This document shows positions 4,661-14,376 of a stretch of DNA of 64,000 bases, piece after piece. The stretch comes from Bauldia sp. (GTDB lineage Bacteria; Pseudomonadota; Alphaproteobacteria; Rhizobiales; Kaistiaceae). Position 1 is the first letter of the stretch. Every line of letters starts with the position of its first letter. The stretch lies in the NCBI GenBank assembly GCA_028284325.1, contig JANQRX010000002.1, positions 186,001 to 250,000 of the forward strand, given 5' to 3'. Below the pieces are notes generated by a model that had not been told where the DNA came from, searched no databases, and was given only the letters and a program-made list of their open reading frames with translations. The position numbers were made by a program, and so were the translations under genes.

Positions 4661-5170
4661 CTAGCGCCGAAACTCCACATCGACCTGCTTCACCGGCAGG
4701 TCGGTCGTCGTCACGATCGTGACCGTCTGCTGGTTGTCGGTCATCGACATGGTCAGGTCGGCCGAATGTCCCAGCGCGCTCAGCGACCCGTCGAAACGTC
4801 CCGTGCCGACCGTGCCCGTCAGCTTGCCGGTGACGTTGAACAGCTTCTCCCACCAGCGGCCGCGAATGGCGCCATCCTTGTGAATGAACACCGCGTTGAT
4901 CTGATAGGTGTCGTCGCCGGTTGCGCAGCGCATGGCCTGCTGCAGGTTGTCGTCGTTGGGCTGGAAGTACTGGACCCGGCAACTCAACGATTCCTCGTTG
5001 CCGTCCTTGAAGACCACGGTACCGGTGCCTCCCCAGACACCGGAAAAGCCGTCGAAGGGGCCGGCGGTCGCGCCGGTGGACATGGCAAGGGGAAGGGCGA
5101 GAAACACGCCGGCCAGCAAGCCGGCCCTCGCCGTTCGGGACAACGATGTCACGGTGCCGTTTGGGCGCAT
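4661..5170 (-). CDS. Secreted protein of unknown function (Rhizobiales-type)
   Basis: Encodes 169 aa from the ATG at 5170, chosen because it gives a classical signal peptide (basic start, then AGLLAGVFLALPLAM, cleavage near ATA-GPF). The mature part begins with FSGVWGGTGTVVFKDG and contains a Cys pair (LSCRVQYF and MRCATGDD), consistent with one periplasmic disulfide. The rest looks beta-rich (RGRWWEKLFNVTGKLTGT, then DLTMSMTDN), suggesting a small beta-barrel or lipocalin-like fold. I recognise the pattern from unnamed Rhizobiales proteins but know of no assigned function. It lies downstream of and on the same strand as the FecR-domain gene (75-base gap) and may be co-transcribed with it. 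Confidence 0.75.
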   Translation of the reverse strand: MRPNGTVTSLSRTARAGLLAGVFLALPLAMSTGATAGPFDGFSGVWGGTGTVVFKDGNEESLSCRVQYFQPNDDNLQQAMRCATGDDTYQINAVFIHKDGAIRGRWWEKLFNVTGKLTGTVGTGRFDGSLSALGHSADLTMSMTDNQQTVTIVTTTDLPVKQVDVEFRR

Positions 5171-5245
5171 GCCTCGTCCGAATCGCCGCGCGCGTGACCG
5201 TAGGATAGATGCGTCGGCGTACGGGTGGAAGCGACAATGCAACCC

Positions 5246-5974
5246 CTACTCGCACGCCTCGCCTTCGCAGCCCTCCTCCACCGTCGGCGGCGGCACGATG
5301 TCGCCGATGCGGAGCGGGGATCCGTCCGGCACCTCGATCCGCCACGACTCCGTCGGTGGGAGGCCGCCGAACAGTGGCCACGTCGTGCCGAAGGAGGCGG
5401 CGTCGAACACCCCGTCGTGCTGATAGGGGCCGGTCACCGTCCCGCCATCGTCGACGGAGAAGGTATCGCCCGCCGTGAAGGTGCGCGGGACCCCGCCGAC
5501 CACGATGACGACGCTGCCCTGCTGCACGATGCAGGTCAGGCTGCCGATCGCGCAGTCGATGATGGTCCCGCGGACGCCGATCGTCGCTACCGGCGTTTCG
5601 ATGGTGTAGTTGAGCGGGTCCTGGCTGCCCGAGATGAACCGGAACGCGCCCTTGGTGGCGGACAGGACGACATTGCCGGTGCCGTTGGCCGGGTCGTAGA
5701 CGAACCGGTCGAGGATCACTTCCGACAACGGCCCGATCGACAGTGTGGTTTCGTCGAGAAACAGCAATTGCGCGACCGACTGCTCGCCGGTGCGGATCAG
5801 CTCCTGCTCGAAGACGCTGCTGCCGGTCGCCAGGCGTCGCGGCGCCCCGTTCTGGACGCCCTGGACGTTGTTCTGCACCGCCGCCGCCACGCCGACCTTG
5901 TCGGCTGCCAGGGACGGGGCCGAAGCGACGGCCAGGCCGGCCGCGACCACGCACATCAGGTACCTGCGGTTCAT
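5246..5974 (-). CDS. Periplasmic FecR-domain protein
   Basis: Encodes 242 aa from the ATG at 5974, which gives a signal peptide (YLMCVVAAGLAVASAPSLAA). Residues about 55-155 carry the FecR domain signature: an RTGEQSVAQLLFLDETTLSIG block, a KGAFRFISG segment, and TPVATIGVRGT, the motif that defines these proteins. It has no cytoplasmic or membrane segment, so it is not a FecR-type anti-sigma regulator. Stand-alone secreted FecR domains are often paired with outer-membrane beta-barrels. Here a divergent gene at 6167 encodes a TPR/beta-barrel protein, which supports a joint envelope role. The C-terminus is acidic with two Cys. The real function is unknown. Confidence 0.85.
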   Translation of the reverse strand: MNRRYLMCVVAAGLAVASAPSLAADKVGVAAAVQNNVQGVQNGAPRRLATGSSVFEQELIRTGEQSVAQLLFLDETTLSIGPLSEVILDRFVYDPANGTGNVVLSATKGAFRFISGSQDPLNYTIETPVATIGVRGTIIDCAIGSLTCIVQQGSVVIVVGGVPRTFTAGDTFSVDDGGTVTGPYQHDGVFDAASFGTTWPLFGGLPPTESWRIEVPDGSPLRIGDIVPPPTVEEGCEGEACE

Positions 5975-6166
5975 TGCGTGATGAACTCGGTTGTTGACGT
6001 CGCTCGCTTGCGCCGGATCGTAGCGGCGCGCCGGGGGCGAAACCAGTGAGCTTTTTGTGCAACAGCCGGGGCCTCGCGACGACGAGGCGGGTGGTCTCGC
6101 GTTGTCTGTGAGGGGCTTAGAACCTAACGTGGCTAAAAACCGGGGCGTTTGGCGAGGCAGGAACCG

Positions 6167-7273
6167 ATGAAGGCGGTGCATACCGCTTTGGCGATGGCCT
6201 TTGGGTTGTTGGTTGCGTCCGCCGCCGCCGCCAGCAGCGACCTCGCTTATCTCAACGCGCTGATCATCGACGATCCCGCCAACGTCGAGCTCAACCTCGA
6301 CTACGCGCTGGTTGCCGAAGGCCAGGGGAAGTACCGGCTGGCGCTTGCCGCCTACGAGCGCATTCTCCTCAACCACCCCGACAACGAGGCCGCGCGGAGG
6401 GGGCTTGTCAGGATTCGGCGCATCATCGAGCCGCCGTTCACGCGGTTCGTCTACGAGGCCGGCGGGAGCGCCCAGTCCAATCCCATGGGCCTCGGCGGCG
6501 GACCCGCAGGCCTGGCCGCATACGGGCGAATCGGCGTGACCGATGAAAGGCGCATCGGCACGGTTCGCTGGCGGTCCGAGGGGAACCTGCTCGGCGAAGT
6601 CCATACCGCCAGCAACAATCTCAACTACGGCCGCGCTTGGGGTTCCGTCGGACCGCTGATCGACCTCGGCGCGTCGCTGGCGACCTTCCGGCCGTCGGCC
6701 GGCGGCGCTCTCGCGTCCCTCGCCGGCGGCTTCTATTACGCCGAGGCCAACGCCAACGCCGATTTCGAGGCGCGCAACATGGCTGCCCGCTTCCGCGCCG
6801 GCTTTCGCACCTACGATTCATCGCTGACGGCGACCAGCGGCTTCTTTCTCAACGCCAGCGGGCAGTACACATTTCCGAACGTCATCCACCCGGGCGACGC
6901 GTTGTCCGTCGCGCCGCAACTCAGGTGGAACGGCATCAACGGCGTGTTCAACAACGGCGTCTCCGACTTCTCGCCGGGGCGTTACCTCGTCGGCAAGGTC
7001 AGGTTCGGCTACGACAAGGCGCTGTCGCGGGACATCAACGTCGGGGCGAGCCTGACGCTCGGCCACCGTCGGTTCCTTGTCGACGTGGCACCGGGCGGCG
7101 CCATGCGGTCGGACATCACCGTGACGCCGGGCGCCTCGGTTCTGTTCAAGGAACTCCTGGGCGTGCAGACTGACGTGCGCGCCGACTACCGGCTCGAGTG
7201 GCAGCGTTCCAACGATCCCACCAAGGAATTTGCCAACCACGTGTTGACGCTGGCCCTGATCCTGCGGCGGTGA
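6167..7273 (+). CDS. TPR-containing outer-membrane beta-barrel protein (Slam-like layout)
   Basis: Encodes 368 aa from the ATG at 6167, preceded by an AGGCAGGA ribosome site. An in-frame GTG/ATG-like extension upstream is less likely because only this start gives an intact signal peptide (HTALAMAFGLLVASAAAA). Residues about 25-85 form tetratricopeptide-like helices (LNLDYALVAEGQGKYRLALA, then AYERILLNHPDNEAARRGL). From about residue 90 to the end, alternating aromatic/polar strands (FGYDKALSRDINVGASLTLG, VRADYRLEW) end in VLTLALILRR, as expected for an outer-membrane barrel of about 14 strands. This N-terminal TPR plus barrel layout is like surface lipoprotein assembly modulators, but I see no sequence signature that proves that family. 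It is divergent from the FecR-domain gene and probably works with it. Confidence 0.72.
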   Translation: MKAVHTALAMAFGLLVASAAAASSDLAYLNALIIDDPANVELNLDYALVAEGQGKYRLALAAYERILLNHPDNEAARRGLVRIRRIIEPPFTRFVYEAGGSAQSNPMGLGGGPAGLAAYGRIGVTDERRIGTVRWRSEGNLLGEVHTASNNLNYGRAWGSVGPLIDLGASLATFRPSAGGALASLAGGFYYAEANANADFEARNMAARFRAGFRTYDSSLTATSGFFLNASGQYTFPNVIHPGDALSVAPQLRWNGINGVFNNGVSDFSPGRYLVGKVRFGYDKALSRDINVGASLTLGHRRFLVDVAPGGAMRSDITVTPGASVLFKELLGVQTDVRADYRLEWQRSNDPTKEFANHVLTLALILRR

Positions 7274-7743: not shown

Positions 7744-7770
7744 TGATCCGAATGTCGGGTGTCCGCGTAG
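7744..7770 (+). promoter_or_regulatory. ECF-sigma (RpoE/ChrR type) promoter of the fasciclin gene
   Basis: TGATCC at 7744-7749, a 16-base spacer, then CGTAG at 7766-7770. The same arrangement occurs before the sigma factor gene (8393), before the FAD oxidoreductase operon (13892, minus strand) and, with CGTTC, before the DUF2177 gene (13911). The 5' UTR to the ATG at 7850 would be about 73 bases. Confidence 0.75.
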
Positions 7771-7849
7771 ATGACGCAAGCATCGGCGCATGTGGTGTCG
7801 ATGCGGGCCTGCCGGACAGGCCCATCGTCAACAATGGGAGACAGACTCC

Positions 7850-8338
7850 ATGCGCAAGACCATCTTCGGTGCCGCGTTCGCCGTCATGTTCGCGGGCGCC
7901 TCGGGCGCCCAGGCCGCCAACATCGTCGAGACCGCCCAGTCGGCCGGCACGTTCAACACGCTGCTGGCGGCCGCGACCGCGGCCGGCCTCGCCGAGGCGC
8001 TGGCGACCGGCGAGAATCTCACGGTTTTCGCCCCGACCGACGAAGCCTTCGCCGCCCTGCCTGAGGGCACGGTCGACACACTGCTGAAGCCCGAGAACAA
8101 GGACCAGCTCATCGCCGTGCTGACTTACCACGTGCTGCCGCGTGAACTGGCCTCCAACATGCTTCCCGGCCGCACGATCCACGTGAAGACCATCAAGGGC
8201 GACGGCGATCGCCTCCTGGCCGTATCGAAGGACGGGCATGGCGTGACCGTCGACGAGGCCAACGTCGTCGCCGCCGACATCCGCGCCGACAACGGCATCA
8301 TCCACGTGATCGACAAGGTCCTGCTTCCCTCGGACTGA
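7850..8338 (+). CDS. Secreted fasciclin (FAS1) domain protein
   Basis: Encodes 162 aa: a signal peptide (FGAAFAVMFAGASGAQA) followed by a single FAS1 domain filling the rest. The H1 motif reads NLTVFAPTDEAFAALP (about residues 60-75), the YHVLP motif follows (TYHVLPRELAS), and the H2 motif is at the end (NGIIHVIDKVLLP). FAS1 proteins are extracytoplasmic and bind surfaces or other proteins. The start at 7850 follows GGGAG. The gene lies under the first copy of the TGATCC-N16-CGTAG promoter and directly upstream of the sigma-chrR operon. From memory, a fasciclin gene belongs to the singlet-oxygen RpoE regulon of Rhodobacter sphaeroides, which fits this location. Confidence 0.93.
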   Translation: MRKTIFGAAFAVMFAGASGAQAANIVETAQSAGTFNTLLAAATAAGLAEALATGENLTVFAPTDEAFAALPEGTVDTLLKPENKDQLIAVLTYHVLPRELASNMLPGRTIHVKTIKGDGDRLLAVSKDGHGVTVDEANVVAADIRADNGIIHVIDKVLLPSD

Positions 8339-8392: not shown

Positions 8393-8419
8393 TGATCCGT
8401 TGCCGCGTCACGTCCGTAG
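8393..8419 (+). promoter_or_regulatory. Autoregulatory ECF-sigma promoter of the rpoE-chrR operon
   Basis: TGATCC at 8393-8398, 16 bases, then CGTAG at 8415-8419. It lies 28 bases before the sigma gene's ATG, which is preceded by AGGAGA. Identical spacing and elements occur at three other regulon promoters in this window, and ECF sigma genes usually read their own promoter. Confidence 0.78.
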
Positions 8420-8446: not shown

Positions 8447-9049
8447 ATGCTAGCCGCATTGGCTGTGACAGACGTTCAGCCGGAGTCTCGACCGTTGGCG
8501 GACGCGGCCGAGGAACACAAGGCGATGATGGCGCGGATCGCCGAATTCGGCGACCGGACGGCCTTCAAGGCGCTTTTTCTCCACTTCGGTCCACGCCTGA
8601 AGTCGTTCATGATGAAATCCGGCGCCTCCGCGGCGCAGGCCGAGGATCTGGTCCAGGACGTCATGCTGACGGTGTGGCGCAAGGTGCACCTCTATTCGGC
8701 CGACCGCGGGTCGGTCAGCGGCTGGATCTTCACCATCGCCCGTAATCTGCGCATCGATCGGCTGCGCGCCGGGTCGTCGCAGCCCTATGAAGATCTGGAG
8801 ACGATCGAGATTGCGGGCGAGGAGCCGAGCGGCGAGGATGTGACGCTTGCCGGCCAGCGTGCGGAACGCGTCGCGGCGGCGCTCGCCGGCCTGCCGGACG
8901 AGCAACGCGAGGTCATCCACATGGCCTTCGTCGAAGACATCCCGCAAAGCGCGATCGCGGCCAGGCTCGACCTGCCGCTGGGGACCGTCAAGTCGCGGAT
9001 GCGGCTCGCCTATTCCAAACTGAAAGTCCAGCTTGAGGGACTGCAATGA
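8447..9049 (+). CDS. rpoE: ECF RNA polymerase sigma factor, RpoE/ChrR-associated group
   Basis: Encodes 200 aa. Region 2 (about residues 40-105) has the core-binding and -10 recognition helices: QAEDLVQDVMLTVWRK and SVSGWIFTIARNLRIDRLR. Region 4 (about 140-195) has the helix-turn-helix LDLPLGTVKSRMRLAYSKLK that reads the -35 element. It is followed, with a four-base ATGA overlap, by a ChrR-type zinc anti-sigma gene, the arrangement of the ECF11-like group. In Rhodobacter sphaeroides this sigma factor drives the response to singlet oxygen. The start at 8447 is supported by AGGAGA nine bases upstream. I infer that it reads the TGATCC-N16-CGT promoters found at 7744, 8393, 13892 and 13911. Confidence 0.93.
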   Translation: MLAALAVTDVQPESRPLADAAEEHKAMMARIAEFGDRTAFKALFLHFGPRLKSFMMKSGASAAQAEDLVQDVMLTVWRKVHLYSADRGSVSGWIFTIARNLRIDRLRAGSSQPYEDLETIEIAGEEPSGEDVTLAGQRAERVAAALAGLPDEQREVIHMAFVEDIPQSAIAARLDLPLGTVKSRMRLAYSKLKVQLEGLQ

Positions 9050-9693
9050 CAAGCGTCCATCACCACCTCGATCACGCGACCGTCCTGCGCTACGCGGCCG
9101 GCGATCTCGACGAGGCGTTCTCGGTCGTGGTCGCGTCCCATCTGGCGATGTGTCCGGTCTGCCGGCGCGCGGTCGCCGCAGCCGAGGATGTCGGCGGCCA
9201 GTTGCTGGAAGACGACGGCGAGGCGGACCTCGATCCCGGCCTCCTCGACCGGGTCATGGCTGGTCTCGACGATGTCGAGACGGCGGAGCCGACACCGGCG
9301 CCGCGCACCGACGGGGAGGTGCCGTACCCGTTGCAGCGCTTCGTCGGCGGCGAGCTCGACGCGATCTCGTGGCGGCCCGTGGCGCCCGGAATCAAGCGGC
9401 ATTCCATCAGGCTTGGCGGGTCGTCGTCGCTCTATCTTCTCAACATCGGTCCGGGCAAGGCGATGCCCGAGCACGGTCACGGCGGGCAGGAGATGACGCT
9501 GATCCTCTCCGGTGCCTATCGCGATGCCATCGGCCGGTTCGGACCGGGCGACATCGCCGATCTCGACGTGCATGTGGAGCACCAGCCGGTCGTCGAGCCG
9601 GACGAGGCGTGCATCTGTCTGGTGGCGACCGAGGCGCCGACGCGCTTCAAGGACGTCGTCAGCCGCCTGCTGCAGCCGATCGTCCGTATCTGA
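9046..9693 (+). CDS. chrR: ChrR-family zinc-binding anti-sigma factor with cupin domain
   Basis: Encodes 215 aa in two domains. The N-terminal anti-sigma domain (about residues 1-75) carries the zinc motif HxxxCxxC (H32, C36, C39) plus nearby N-terminal histidines (H5-H7). The C-terminal cupin (about 95-200) has H143, H145, E149 and H179, matching the metal ligands of R. sphaeroides ChrR with an offset of about two. Family knowledge: the N-terminal domain holds the sigma factor inactive, and the cupin domain is needed for release upon singlet oxygen or organic hydroperoxide stress. All ligands are present, so the switch should work. Coupled to the sigma gene by a four-base overlap. Confidence 0.94.
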   Translation: MTSVHHHLDHATVLRYAAGDLDEAFSVVVASHLAMCPVCRRAVAAAEDVGGQLLEDDGEADLDPGLLDRVMAGLDDVETAEPTPAPRTDGEVPYPLQRFVGGELDAISWRPVAPGIKRHSIRLGGSSSLYLLNIGPGKAMPEHGHGGQEMTLILSGAYRDAIGRFGPGDIADLDVHVEHQPVVEPDEACICLVATEAPTRFKDVVSRLLQPIVRI

Positions 9694-9714: not shown

Positions 9715-10476
9715 ATGAGTCTGCCCTGGTCCTGCGCCTGGATCATCGGTGCGAGCTCCGGCATGGGCCGCGAACTCGCCCGCCTCCTCGACGGGCGGGT
9801 GGCCTACGTCGCCGTCTCCGCCCGATCCGAGGGCGCCCTGACGAACCTCGCGAGGGAAAGCCGGACGATCCACGCCTATCCGCTCGACGTCACCGGGCCG
9901 GACGACGTCGCCACGGCCGCGCGGGCAATCGAAGCCACGGGCGGCCCGATCGACCTCGTCGTGCTCAGCGCCGGCGCGTGGACGCTGATGGACGCCGCCG
10001 ATCTCGATATCGACGCCGTCCGCCGCGGGGTCGAGGTGAACTACATGGGCACGATCCACGGCCTGGCTGCGGTGCTGCCGGGCATGCTCGCCCGCGGTCG
10101 CGGTCATATCGCGATCATGGCGTCGGTGGCCGGATATCGCGGGCTGCCGCGCTCGATCGCCTACGGCCCGACCAAGGCGGCGCTGATCAACCTCGCCGAG
10201 ACCCTGCGGGTCGAGTTAGCCGGCAAAGGCATCACCGTGTCGCTCATCAATCCCGGCTTTGTCGACACGCCGCTGACGCGCACCAACCCGTTCCCCATGC
10301 CGGGCCTGATGACGGCGGAGGCGGCGGCGCGCCGGATCCTGCGCGGTCTGGAGCGCCGGCGGTTCGAGATCGCCTTTCCGTTCGGTTTCACGATGGCCAT
10401 GAAGGCGCTGCGCACCATGCCGACCGTGGCCTATCTGTGGATCATGCGCCGCACGGTGATGCGCAACGCCGCGTGA
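9715..10476 (+). CDS. SDR-family short-chain dehydrogenase/reductase, stress-regulon member
   Basis: Encodes 253 aa. The NAD(P)-binding loop reads GASSGMGREL, the active-site segment has the catalytic Ser (MASVAGYRG) and the YxxxK pair (YGPTKAAL), and NPGFVDTPLT is the usual C-terminal SDR motif. A hydrophobic/basic C-terminus (FGFTMAMKALRTMPTVAYLW) suggests membrane association. It starts 21 bases after chrR with no intervening promoter, so it is probably the third gene of the sigma operon. An SDR of this kind also sits beside the homologous lipid genes in the R. sphaeroides RpoE regulon (from memory). The substrate is unknown; a keto- or hydroxy-lipid is an attractive guess given its neighbours. 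Confidence 0.9.
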   Translation: MSLPWSCAWIIGASSGMGRELARLLDGRVAYVAVSARSEGALTNLARESRTIHAYPLDVTGPDDVATAARAIEATGGPIDLVVLSAGAWTLMDAADLDIDAVRRGVEVNYMGTIHGLAAVLPGMLARGRGHIAIMASVAGYRGLPRSIAYGPTKAALINLAETLRVELAGKGITVSLINPGFVDTPLTRTNPFPMPGLMTAEAAARRILRGLERRRFEIAFPFGFTMAMKALRTMPTVAYLWIMRRTVMRNAA

Positions 10477-10489
10477 GGCATGCGCCGGG

Positions 10490-11719
10490 TCAAGGCCGGC
10501 GCAGCGTATAGACACCGACGTCGATGGCGCCTTCCAGGAATCCCGCCTCGCAATAGGCGAGGTAGTAGCGCCACATGCGGCGGAACCGTTCGTCGAAGCC
10601 GAGCGGCCGGATGGCCGGCCAGGCCGCCTCGAAGCGCTCCCGCCATAGGCGGAGCGTCCGCGCGTAACTCAAGCCGAACGTGCGCTGGCGCTCGAGAACG
10701 AGCCCGGCCGCGCGCGCTTCGTCGGCGATCGCTGTCTTCGTCGGCAGCATGCCGCCGGGGAAGATGTAGCGCTGGATGAAATCCGGGTTGCGCCGATAGG
10801 CGTCAAAGCGCGCTTCGTCGATGGTGATCGCTTGGATCACCGCCAGGCCGCCGGACTTCAGGCGGTCGTGGAGGGCGGCGAAATAGGTCGGCCAATAGAC
10901 CTCGCCGACCGCCTCAACCATCTCCACCGACACGATGCGGTCGTAGGTGCCGTCGGCGTCGCGGTAGTCGGTGAGCTCGAAACGGCACGTATCCAGCCCC
11001 TCGGCCGCGGTGGCGGCGACGGCATGGTCGTACTGCTCGCGCGAGAGCGTGATGCCGGTGACGTCGACGCCGCGACGGGCGGCCCGGCGGGCGAGCGCAC
11101 CCCAGCCGCAGCCGATTTCCAGGAGCCGCTGGCCCGGCGCGAGGTCGGCTTCGTCGAGGACGAGGTCGAGCTTGGCCTTCTGCGCATCGTCCAGGCTGTC
11201 GCCCGGGTCGCGGAAAAGCCCGCTGGAATAGACCATGTCGGCGTCGAGCCATTGCCGGAAGAAGTCGTTGCCGAGGTCGTAGTGGGCGGCAATGTTGCGG
11301 CGGCTGCCCCGGCGCGTGTTCCGCCGTCGGCGATGGGCGCGGCGGTCGCCATCGCGGACGCGGAAAACGGACGGTCCGGCCTCGCCCAGGCGGGCGCGGT
11401 TGCGCAGGAAGAACCGGAAGAGCGCGGCGAGGTCCGGCGAGTCGATCCCGCCGTCGAGATAGGCCTCGGCGAAGCCGAGCGCACCGCGCCTCAGCGCCCG
11501 CGCGAGGACCGCATAATCGTTGACGATCAGGCGGGCCTCGTCGTCGTCGGCGCGGCCGAAACGGACCGACTCGCCGGTCGGCAGATCGATGACGATCGCG
11601 CCGTCCGGCTCCCAGGCGAGGAAGGGGCGGGCGGCCGTCTTGATCAGCGCCGTCACCGCGCGCAGCGCGAAACCGGTGCGGGGCGGCGGCCCGGCGAGAA
11701 GGTGGTCGTTGGAACTCAC
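10490..11719 (-). CDS. Cyclopropane-fatty-acid-synthase-like SAM methyltransferase, altered active site (UfaM-like candidate)
   Basis: Encodes 409 aa with a GTG start at 11719 overlapping the DUF1365 stop (GTGA). The SAM loop is LLEIGCGWGALARRA (about 199-213), and the CFA-type lipid-binding segment HYDLGNDFFRQW precedes it. Compared from memory with E. coli Cfa, three of the five bicarbonate-contacting residues differ: the Cys of YSC is Ser (S166), the His of LLHTIG is Gln (Q296), and the Tyr of WYERF is Arg (R360). Glu269 and Ile298 are kept. True cyclopropane synthases need this bicarbonate. The protein may therefore methylate an unsaturated acyl chain without closing a ring, as UfaM does in furan fatty acid synthesis. 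It is last in a three-gene operon behind an ECF promoter. The family is certain; the product is an inference. Confidence 0.88.
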   Translation of the reverse strand: MSSNDHLLAGPPPRTGFALRAVTALIKTAARPFLAWEPDGAIVIDLPTGESVRFGRADDDEARLIVNDYAVLARALRRGALGFAEAYLDGGIDSPDLAALFRFFLRNRARLGEAGPSVFRVRDGDRRAHRRRRNTRRGSRRNIAAHYDLGNDFFRQWLDADMVYSSGLFRDPGDSLDDAQKAKLDLVLDEADLAPGQRLLEIGCGWGALARRAARRGVDVTGITLSREQYDHAVAATAAEGLDTCRFELTDYRDADGTYDRIVSVEMVEAVGEVYWPTYFAALHDRLKSGGLAVIQAITIDEARFDAYRRNPDFIQRYIFPGGMLPTKTAIADEARAAGLVLERQRTFGLSYARTLRLWRERFEAAWPAIRPLGFDERFRRMWRYYLAYCEAGFLEGAIDVGVYTLRRP

Positions 11720-12504
11720 GACGTGCCCTCGCGCGTGGCCGTGTCACCGGCAAGCGGTCGGGCTTGTGATTGGGCTCGGGGGCGACGGTAGACCTTGAGG
11801 CCCTTCATCCACAGGCGCGCCGCCTCGACATGGATGCCGACGATCACCTTCGCGGTCATCCAGCCGGTGCGTGCCAGCGCCGCGACCAGGGCGGCGTCGG
11901 TGAGCGGACGCCGCTCGGCGGCGAACGTCGCGTTCAGGACCGGTCCGGCCTCATCGCGCAGGGCGATGCCGACGGTCAGGCGCTGGCCCGGCTCGGTCAG
12001 GCGGAAGGTGTAACGGCCGGTCACATCGTTAAACGGCGAAACATGCATGCGTTTGGCGCAGGACTGCCGCACCGAGCCGTCATCGAGAGGCTCGGCCGGC
12101 AGGGTGTAGGTGGTGCGCTCGCCGAAGGTGTTGTTGACCTCGTAGATGGTCACGCGAAGCCGGTCGTCGGCGTCGGTGCCGTAATAAACGGTGAGCGGAT
12201 TGAACGCGTAACCGAGAATCCGCGGATAGCAGAGCATGCGGTAGCGGGTTACTGACGTGCCGGCCGGACCGGCGGCGCGATCGAGGTGGCGGCGAAGATC
12301 GCCGCTGCCGTCGCCGTGATCGCGGGTATGGAGGCTGATCAGGTTGGCGCGATTTACGGACAGGAGCCGGAGACGCCGGTCGAGTTGCTCCAGCCGGTCG
12401 ACGTCAACGAGCAGCGAGAAGACGCGGTAGCGGAGCCGGTGCGCCACCGGCCGCACCCGCCGGTGGACCACGAAACCCTCGTACAAAGCGCCGTCCAGCA
12501 TCAT
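11716..12504 (-). CDS. DUF1365 family protein of the CFA/furan-lipid cluster
   Basis: Encodes 262 aa from the ATG at 12504, one base after the stop of the FAD gene; a second ATG follows immediately. The family signature is clear: LYEGFVVHRRVRPVAHRLRY at the start, NRANLISLHTRDHGDGSG, CYPRILGYAFNPLTVYY, YEVNNTFGERTTY, MHVSPFNDVTGRYTF and GWMTAKVIVGIHVEAARLW near the end. DUF1365 genes almost always sit between an FAD amine-oxidase-like gene and a CFA-like methyltransferase gene, exactly as here. Its biochemical activity has not, to my knowledge, been assigned. The conserved His and Asn residues suggest an enzyme or a lipid-binding partner in the same pathway. Confidence 0.93.
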   Translation of the reverse strand: MMLDGALYEGFVVHRRVRPVAHRLRYRVFSLLVDVDRLEQLDRRLRLLSVNRANLISLHTRDHGDGSGDLRRHLDRAAGPAGTSVTRYRMLCYPRILGYAFNPLTVYYGTDADDRLRVTIYEVNNTFGERTTYTLPAEPLDDGSVRQSCAKRMHVSPFNDVTGRYTFRLTEPGQRLTVGIALRDEAGPVLNATFAAERRPLTDAALVAALARTGWMTAKVIVGIHVEAARLWMKGLKVYRRPRAQSQARPLAGDTATREGTS

Positions 12505-12505
12505 G

Positions 12506-13834
12506 CTACTCCGCCGCCTCGCGTATCGGAGGCTCCAGTGCCGTTGCAATCCGTCCCGATTCCTGCGGCACGGTCCAAGGGCGTTTGACGCCGCCCAGCC
12601 GTTCGGCCACCGCTAGGCCGGCCTGGAGGCCGTCCTCGTGGAAGCCGTAGCCGAAATAGCTGCCGCAGAACCAGGTCCGGTTCACGCCCTGCACCTCCGG
12701 CAGCCGGCTCTGTGCGGCGATGGCGCCGGCGTCGAGCACCGGGTGGTCGAAGTCGATCTCAAGGTCGATGAGGGCCGGGTCGATCGCGCGGTCGGGATTG
12801 AGCGTCACGAACAGGTCCGTGGACGTGGGGAGGTTCTGGAGGCGGTTGGTCCAGTAGGTGACACAGAGATCGCTGTCGGGGCCGGCGCCTTGTTTGAGAT
12901 AGTTCCAGCTCGACCACAGCCGGCGGCGCCGTGGCATCAGGTGTCGGTCGCGGTGGAGGACCACGCGGTTGGTCTGATAGCCGAAGCTGCTGAGAACCGA
13001 CCGTTCCGCCGGCGTCGGGGCGTCGAGCAGGGCGAGGGCGGTGCCTGCATGGGTGGCCATGACCACGTGATCGAACGGCCGGTCGACGCCGCGATCGTCG
13101 CGAATGACGGCATGGTTTTGCCGGCGAATGATCTTTCGGACCGGGTTGGCGGAGGAAATTTCCACTGAAACATCATCAAGAAGCCGGCTAACATAGGTCC
13201 GGCTGCCGCCGGCCACCGTGCGCCAGTCGGGGCGGTTGCGGAACCGCAGCATGCCGTGGTTGGCGTAGAACTCGACGAAGGTCCTGGCGGGGAAGTCCAG
13301 GAAACTCGCCATCGACGTCGACCAGATGGCCGCCCCCATCGGCAGGATGTGGTCGTGGACGAAGGCCTCGGAGTAGCCGCAGCGGGCCAGGAAGGCGCCC
13401 AGCGTCTCATCGGGGTGCCGGCGTGCCTCGTCTTCGGCCGTTCTGAAGAATCGAGCGACGTCGGCGAGCAGCCGCCAGTGGCGGGGGCTGGCGACATTGT
13501 GGGGCTGACCGAAGAATCCCGGGAACCCGGCGCTCGCATACTCGTAGCGGCCGCGATCGACCGAGACCGAAAAGCTCATCTCGGTCGGTTGCGTGGCGAC
13601 ACCGAGATGATCGAACATCGCCGTGAGATTCGGGTAATTGGCCTCGTTGTAGACGACGAAACCGGTGTCGACGGCGACCGTGCCGGACGGGGTCTCGACG
13701 TCGACGGTGTGGGCATGGCCGCCGGGCGTCGGCGCCTGCTCGAACAGCGTCACACGGTGTCGGCGTGCGAGCAGCCAGGCGGCGGACAGACCGGATATGC
13801 CGGACCCGATGACGGCGATGCTCAATGGTTTCAT
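12506..13834 (-). CDS. FAD-dependent oxidoreductase, flavin amine oxidase type (UfaD-like candidate)
   Basis: Encodes 442 aa. The N-terminus holds an FAD dinucleotide fold (IAVIGSGISGLSAAWLLARR, then LFEQAPTPGGHAHT). The next segment, DTGFVVYNEANYPNLTAMFD, is typical of the FAD protein that accompanies DUF1365 and CFA-like genes. The C-terminal FAD-closing motif is WFCGSYFGYGFHEDGLQAG. In Rhodobacter sphaeroides the equivalent gene (UfaD, as I recall RSP_1091) acts as a desaturase on methylated acyl chains in furan fatty acid synthesis. First gene of a minus-strand operon with DUF1365 and the methyltransferase (gaps of 1 base and -4 bases), with its own ECF-type promoter at 13892-13866. The fold is certain; the furan-lipid role is inferred from context. 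Confidence 0.92.
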   Translation of the reverse strand: MKPLSIAVIGSGISGLSAAWLLARRHRVTLFEQAPTPGGHAHTVDVETPSGTVAVDTGFVVYNEANYPNLTAMFDHLGVATQPTEMSFSVSVDRGRYEYASAGFPGFFGQPHNVASPRHWRLLADVARFFRTAEDEARRHPDETLGAFLARCGYSEAFVHDHILPMGAAIWSTSMASFLDFPARTFVEFYANHGMLRFRNRPDWRTVAGGSRTYVSRLLDDVSVEISSANPVRKIIRRQNHAVIRDDRGVDRPFDHVVMATHAGTALALLDAPTPAERSVLSSFGYQTNRVVLHRDRHLMPRRRRLWSSWNYLKQGAGPDSDLCVTYWTNRLQNLPTSTDLFVTLNPDRAIDPALIDLEIDFDHPVLDAGAIAAQSRLPEVQGVNRTWFCGSYFGYGFHEDGLQAGLAVAERLGGVKRPWTVPQESGRIATALEPPIREAAE

Positions 13835-13865
13835 GTCGGGGTGCGGGTTCGTTGCGACATGTTCA

Positions 13866-13892
13866 CTACGCGCCCGGGTGGCCGACGGATCA
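13866..13892 (-). promoter_or_regulatory. ECF-sigma promoter of the FAD/DUF1365/methyltransferase operon
   Basis: On the minus strand TGATCC occupies 13892-13887, followed by 16 bases and CGTAG at 13870-13866. It lies 31 bases before the ATG at 13834. Its -35 box is 18 bases from that of the divergent promoter at 13911, so both operons can be opened from one regulatory region. Confidence 0.78.
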
Positions 13893-13910
13893 CCCGCCGT
13901 CGAGGAGGAG

Positions 13911-13937
13911 TGATCCGCGAACGGCGCGGCGACGTTC
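13911..13937 (+). promoter_or_regulatory. ECF-sigma promoter of the DUF2177 gene
   Basis: TGATCC at 13911-13916, a 16-base spacer and CGTTC at 13933-13937; the -10 side matches less well than the other three copies (CGTAG). It lies 31 bases before the ATG at 13969, back to back with the promoter for the minus-strand operon. Confidence 0.65.
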
Positions 13938-13968
13938 TCAGAGCATATCCGTCGGGAAAGGGCCGGAA

Positions 13969-14376
13969 ATGTTGAGGTATATCGTTGCCTATCTGGCGAC
14001 CGCGGTCGTCTTTCTGGCGATCGACTATGTCTGGTTAACGCGTGTCGCCCTGCAATTCTACCGCGAGAATCTCGGCGACCTGCTGCTCGCCAATCCGCGG
14101 ATAGGCGCGGCCGCCGCGTTTTATGCCGTCTACGTCATCGGCATCGTGATCTTTGCCGTCGCGCCGGCCCTGCGTTCGGGAAGCGCCCTGACGGCGCTGG
14201 CGTTCGGGGCGCTGTTCGGGTTCTTCGCCTATGCCACCTACGACATGACCAACTACGCGACCCTGAAGAACTGGCCGCTGACGGTCTCGGTGGTCGACAT
14301 CATCTGGGGGACCGCCCTGACCGGTGTCTCGGCGTGGCTCGGGGCCTTGATCACACGGGCGATCCTGCCCGCCTGA
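13969..14376 (+). CDS. DUF2177 family membrane protein, stress-regulon member
   Basis: Encodes 135 aa with four predicted membrane helices. The DUF2177 signature is clear: a first helix with VFLAIDYVWLTRVALQFYR, then PRIGAAAAFYAVYVIGIVIF, GALFGFFAYATYDMTNYATL, and WPLTVSVVDIIWGTALTG. The charged and polar residues in the helices (D in IDY, the YDMTN motif, VDIIWG) are conserved in the family, whose function is unknown. It is divergent from the FAD oxidoreductase operon across a shared regulatory region with two ECF-type promoters. As I recall, a DUF2177 gene also sits among the RpoE-controlled genes of R. sphaeroides, so a role in singlet-oxygen or lipid stress is likely. Confidence 0.92.
   Translation: MLRYIVAYLATAVVFLAIDYVWLTRVALQFYRENLGDLLLANPRIGAAAAFYAVYVIGIVIFAVAPALRSGSALTALAFGALFGFFAYATYDMTNYATLKNWPLTVSVVDIIWGTALTGVSAWLGALITRAILPA

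Follow-up and report, generated by a model that had tools for sequence, protein, structure and literature searches.

A probable ufaM orthologue in a ufaD-ufaO-ufaM operon of Bauldia sp. and the Ser/Gln pattern of its bicarbonate site

The gene at positions 10490..11719 (minus strand) of the window, i.e., the whole 64-kb stretch of Bauldia sp. DNA analyzed here, is very probably an orthologue of ufaM located in a ufaD-ufaO-ufaM operon, which would be transcribed by RpoE (sigmaE, ECF11) once singlet-oxygen or peroxide stress leads to removal of ChrR, and its product would catalyze the first step of furan fatty acid synthesis. The computed basis of this assignment comprises homology, operon order, the regulator, promoter motifs and the residue pattern, and the reaction product was inferred from these. 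A UfaM-type function appears probable because the gene agrees with ufaM in its operon, regulator, promoter and clade, and not on account of residue loss. The first-pass annotation had named UfaM-like methylation of an alkene as an alternative to cyclopropanation, for which the content and gene order of the operon, the regulator, the promoter and the clade now provide good support. Judged from its sequence, the locus is probably a known bacterial system and not a new one, namely a ufaDOM operon that adjoins rpoE-chrR and is probably controlled by RpoE-ChrR.

The methyltransferase and its bicarbonate site

The open reading frame starts with GTG, encodes 409 amino acids and is a genuine gene for a SAM-dependent lipid methyltransferase of family PF02353, for which the profile search gave a match of 285 bits; the frame is intact and the SAM motif LEIGCGWG is retained. 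The AlphaFold2 model of the protein was confident (pLDDT 86.6), and the structures closest to it (VIA-align) were those of Cfa from Lactobacillus, Aquifex and E. coli with Z scores of 37-38, the value for E. coli Cfa (6BQC) being 37. N-methyltransferases reached Z scores of 28-31, below those of Cfa, and their likeness was ascribed to the common methyltransferase fold only. Open reading frame, strand, coordinates, fold and SAM loop had thus all been read correctly in the first-pass annotation. The PF02353 fold and the SAM motif of canonical Cfa are both present in the protein, which scored 269 against the NCBIfam Cfa equivalog with its cut-off of 400.

Cfa of E. coli MG1655, taken from the genome record, served as reference and was aligned with the Bauldia protein and its 109 nearest relatives. 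The five bicarbonate contacts Cys139, Glu239, His266, Ile268 and Tyr317 align with Ser166, Glu269, Gln296, Ile298 and Tyr352, respectively, i.e., two contacts are altered (Cys to Ser and His to Gln) and three are retained. Counting only the side-chain ligands of Cfa, which are Glu239, His266 and Tyr317 (PMC11387697), one of three is substituted, namely His. The alignment with E. coli Cfa therefore upheld the replacement of Cys by Ser166 and of His by Gln296 as well as the retention of Glu269 and Ile298, as previously noted from the sequence, but not the proposed replacement of Tyr by Arg360. The latter arose from an alignment error: the Tyr of WYERF is Tyr325 in E. coli Cfa and no bicarbonate ligand, whereas the true ligand Tyr317 lies in DYDTTL and is matched by Tyr352 in S-Y-A-R-T-L of the Bauldia protein. 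Hence, the statements that most bicarbonate-binding residues had been lost and that only Glu269 and Ile298 of the five were left do not hold.

A separate full CMAS protein, whose gene lies on contig C11 of this genome, carries all five canonical residues (C-E-H-I-Y) and presumably makes any cyclopropane lipids of Bauldia sp. The protein studied here shares with this Cfa and with that of E. coli the two-domain fold, the SAM site and the Glu, Ile and Tyr contacts, but differs from both in Ser and Gln at the positions of Cys139 and His266 and in its operon and regulation.

Operon, regulator and predicted promoters

The ufaM-like gene is the third of three genes that run in the same direction with overlapping ends. 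It is preceded by a ufaO-like gene (11716..12549, minus strand), the only DUF1365 (PF07103) gene found in the genome, with 4 nt shared between its stop and the start of ufaM, and the first gene of the operon is ufaD-like (12506..13834, minus strand) and encodes an FAD-dependent protein of the amine oxidase family (PF01593). The combination known from furan operons, a PF02353 methylase with a UfaD-like FAD protein and a DUF1365/UfaO protein, is therefore present. The order FAD protein, DUF1365 protein and methyltransferase is identical in Rhodopseudomonas pseudopalustris (L109), the congener of R. palustris CGA009 from which the Rhodopseudomonas sequences compared here were taken; amino acid identities amount to 44% for ufaD, 44% for ufaO and 49% for ufaM, and the Rhodopseudomonas methyltransferase has Ser and Gln as well. 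In R. palustris CGA009 itself, ufaD-ufaO-ufaM correspond to RPA2571-2570-2569, a run homologous to the window operon with the same three-gene order, and its expression in a triple mutant of R. sphaeroides led to formation of 11Me-12t-18:1, 11Me-10t,12t-18:2 and 9M5-FuFA (PMC7380195). Like UfaM from R. sphaeroides (RSP_2144, UniProt Q3J4I7) and R. palustris (RPA2569), the Bauldia protein is a PF02353 methylase, and it falls into the clade of the Rhodopseudomonas protein. The locus resembles that of R. sphaeroides in its linkage to RpoE-ChrR, but in R. sphaeroides ufaM lies at a site not linked to ufaD and ufaO, while the three genes overlap in Bauldia sp. Of 80 named relative loci, 62 contain a ufaD-like frame and 64 contain a DUF1365 frame.

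Beside the operon lie genes for an RpoE-like ECF sigma factor (8447..9049, plus strand) and for the anti-sigma factor ChrR (9046..9693, plus strand; TIGR02451 with 198.2 bits at a cut-off of 124.5, and ChrR cupin PF12973), followed downstream of chrR by a short-chain dehydrogenase gene (9715..10476, plus strand). The furan genes belong, together with rpoE-chrR, to a core regulon that is conserved in R. sphaeroides and its relatives (PMC6852236; PMC5507510), and the core sigmaE regulon of R. sphaeroides includes a short-chain dehydrogenase (RSP_1087) that is dispensable there for furan fatty acid synthesis (PMC7380195, PMC5507510). In gene content, the neighborhood in the window matches much of the core sigmaE-ChrR regulon.

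The ECF11 consensus TGATCC-N16-CGTA, as published for P. syringae (PMC5507510), predicts sigmaE promoters at 13867..13892 (minus strand), 32 nt 5' of the ufaD start codon, and at 8393..8418 (plus strand) upstream of rpoE. Three exact matches were observed in the 64-kb window compared to 0.03 expected, located before rpoE, ufaD and a gene for a fasciclin-domain protein, whereas the pattern TGATC-N16..22-TAAG had no match near the operon. Beyond the window, where the genome was sampled by pattern search, exact matches did not coincide with convincing gene starts. The 80 relative loci contained 69 matches to the motif with spacers of 15-17 nt and none to the reversed control. Of the 62 ufaD-like frames, 15 had the motif at their 5' end, as did 19 of 29 rpoE frames; it was absent there from all short-chain dehydrogenase, DUF1365 and ufaM frames, which would be expected of a motif that marks operon heads. 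Motif match and linkage point to control by RpoE-ChrR as the probable mode of regulation.

Two further genes were observed in connection with this motif. An exact ECF11 motif at 7744-7769 lies upstream of the fasciclin-domain (PF02469) gene 7790-8338, just before rpoE, so that the sigmaE-ChrR regulon of Bauldia sp. may extend to this gene. Moreover, a near-match with a single mismatch, TGATCC-N16-CGTT (13911..13936, plus strand), faces a DUF2177 membrane-protein gene that is divergent from ufaD (13825..14376, plus strand, as the longest frame, with the true start likely at about 13969). As the exact motif occurs at the 5' end of six of 15 DUF2177 frames in the relative loci (L039, L044, L047, L051, L054 and L063), DUF2177 genes seem to recur as part of the regulon.

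Conservation of the Ser/Gln pattern

Both substitutions are fixed features and did not arise by chance, since Gln, Glu, Ile and Tyr occupy the positions of Gln296, Glu269, Ile298 and Tyr352 in all 109 nearest relatives and the position of Ser166 is held by Ser in 100 and by Ala in nine of them; accordingly, the five-contact pattern is S-E-Q-I-Y, as in Bauldia sp., in 100 relatives and A-E-Q-I-Y in nine. All five residues were invariant in an alignment of 16 sequences. A broader, less biased sample covered the class with roughly one genome per family; 80 stretches around CMAS-family places were retrieved from it, in most cases including 5 kb of flanking sequence on each side. Here, the position of His266 was occupied by His in 41 proteins and by Gln in 40. 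Both a ufaD-like and a DUF1365 gene were nearby for 25 of the 40 Gln-type proteins compared to two of the 41 His-type proteins, each of which lies beside a Gln-type operon; the association is pronounced (Fisher p = 1.6e-8), with the p value serving as a guide only since related genes are not independent. The remaining 15 Gln-type genes lacked ufaD and ufaO as a pair alongside. When ten unlinked S-E-Q-I-Y cases were searched, no DUF1365 gene was found in three of the genomes. These three carry Gln-type ufaM-like genes (L188, L222 and L224 in G097, G114 and G108, respectively), where the pathway might end with the methylated alkene or be a different one. In another genome, a Gln-type ufaM (L171, 8567-9817) and a canonical His-type cfa (4944-6395) were located on the same strand about 2 kb apart.

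In the maximum-likelihood analysis, a quick tree calculated without bootstrap, the Bauldia protein grouped with Rhodopseudomonas UfaM separately from canonical Cfa. One clade of 47 rows (97% SH-aLRT) united both proteins with nearly all Gln-type proteins; 46 of its members have Gln and one has Ala, while three Gln proteins fall outside. The member with Ala at the position of His266 (L232, 4464-5801; S-E-A-I-Y) indicates that this position is not absolutely fixed. The clade-wide exchange of His for Gln in the UfaM lineage, which is common to the cotton synthases, may be a new point, as no description of it for UfaM was found in the literature searched.

Ring closure or an open-chain product

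Bicarbonate residues alone cannot separate cyclopropane synthases from other fatty acid methylases: GhCPS1 from cotton, in which Ser and Gln are likewise substituted, forms cyclopropane acids (17:0 and 19:0) when expressed in yeast (PMC3132707), C139S E. coli Cfa retains 31% of its catalytic efficiency (PMC3132707), and BfaB enzymes form methylene and not ring products despite a conserved bicarbonate site (PMC7791843). The residue argument against cyclopropanation put forward in the first-pass annotation therefore fails, as an active cotton enzyme has the same Ser/Gln pair and Tyr352 is present, and the pattern was discarded as proof against ring formation. The cotton enzyme and the active C139S mutant would also speak for a second genuine, stress-controlled cyclopropane fatty acid synthase that still holds bicarbonate through the three retained contacts Glu269, Ile298 and Tyr352 in a fold that matches E. 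coli Cfa at Z 37. Nevertheless, we consider this reading unlikely, given that the gene is embedded in a ufaD-ufaO operon, that a canonical Cfa is already encoded in the genome and that bacterial enzymes of the same kind from R. sphaeroides and R. palustris (PMC7380195) and from Halomonas (PMC12089945) form the 11-methyl-12-ene.

It is still less probable that the protein is a methylene-forming enzyme of the BfaB/TmpB type for 10-methyl branched fatty acids with the FAD protein as reductase. In both systems, a Cfa-like methylase is indeed encoded next to a flavoprotein gene (PMC7791843), but BfaB was chosen for its conserved Cfa bicarbonate site (PMC7791843), from which the Bauldia protein departs with Ser and Gln, the bfa operon comprises two genes and leads to a reduced methyl-branched product, and here a DUF1365 gene lies in between in a three-gene operon linked to RpoE-ChrR. 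The two active-site substitutions could also be taken as signs of a catalytically dead or decaying paralogue; this is hardly credible, since both are fixed in the clade, many alignment columns are invariant, and neither the reading frame nor the motif LEIGCGWG is disrupted.

For the preferred UfaM-type reading, we propose that RpoE, freed by removal of ChrR under singlet-oxygen or peroxide stress, would transcribe ufaD-ufaO-ufaM, and that UfaM would methylate an unsaturated fatty acid of membrane phospholipids, presumably cis-vaccenate, leaving a cation at C12. This cation would lose a proton from C13 and not from the new methyl group, which would yield 11-methyl-12-trans-18:1 without a ring; UfaD would then desaturate this compound to the 10,12-diene, and UfaO would add O2, whereupon the furan ring would close. 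The replacements of Cys139 by Ser166 and of His266 by Gln296 characterize the clade; speculatively, they may retune the base site and could help to place the base for proton loss at C13, a role for which no test was found in the literature searched. Glu269, Ile298 and Tyr352 could still hold bicarbonate or water.

The plant synthases (GhCPS1/2 of cotton and AT3G23510, i.e., AtUFAMD1, of Arabidopsis) resemble the Bauldia protein in the Ser/Gln pair, as seen in GhCPS1 (PMC3132707), but carry the UfaD-like FAD domain fused to the methylase instead of having it encoded by a separate gene of the operon, and GhCPS1 makes cyclopropanes whereas a methylated alkene would be the product in Bauldia sp. 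We tentatively suggest that the exchange of His266 for Gln, together with that of Cys139 for Ser or Ala, might be the ancestral signature of the whole UfaM lineage, also present in plant cyclopropane synthases. It would mark a base site that has been remodeled, with other residues directing proton loss either to C13, which gives a methylated alkene with an open chain, or to the methyl group, which gives a ring. Databases label such genes as cyclopropane synthases, while Gln at E. coli position 266 and Ser or Ala at position 139, with DUF1365 and FAD neighbors, set the methylases of the furan pathway apart from ordinary bacterial Cfa. Missing canonical bicarbonate ligands by themselves do not exclude cyclopropanation, and the signature makes the determinant of ring or no ring addressable by residue swaps.
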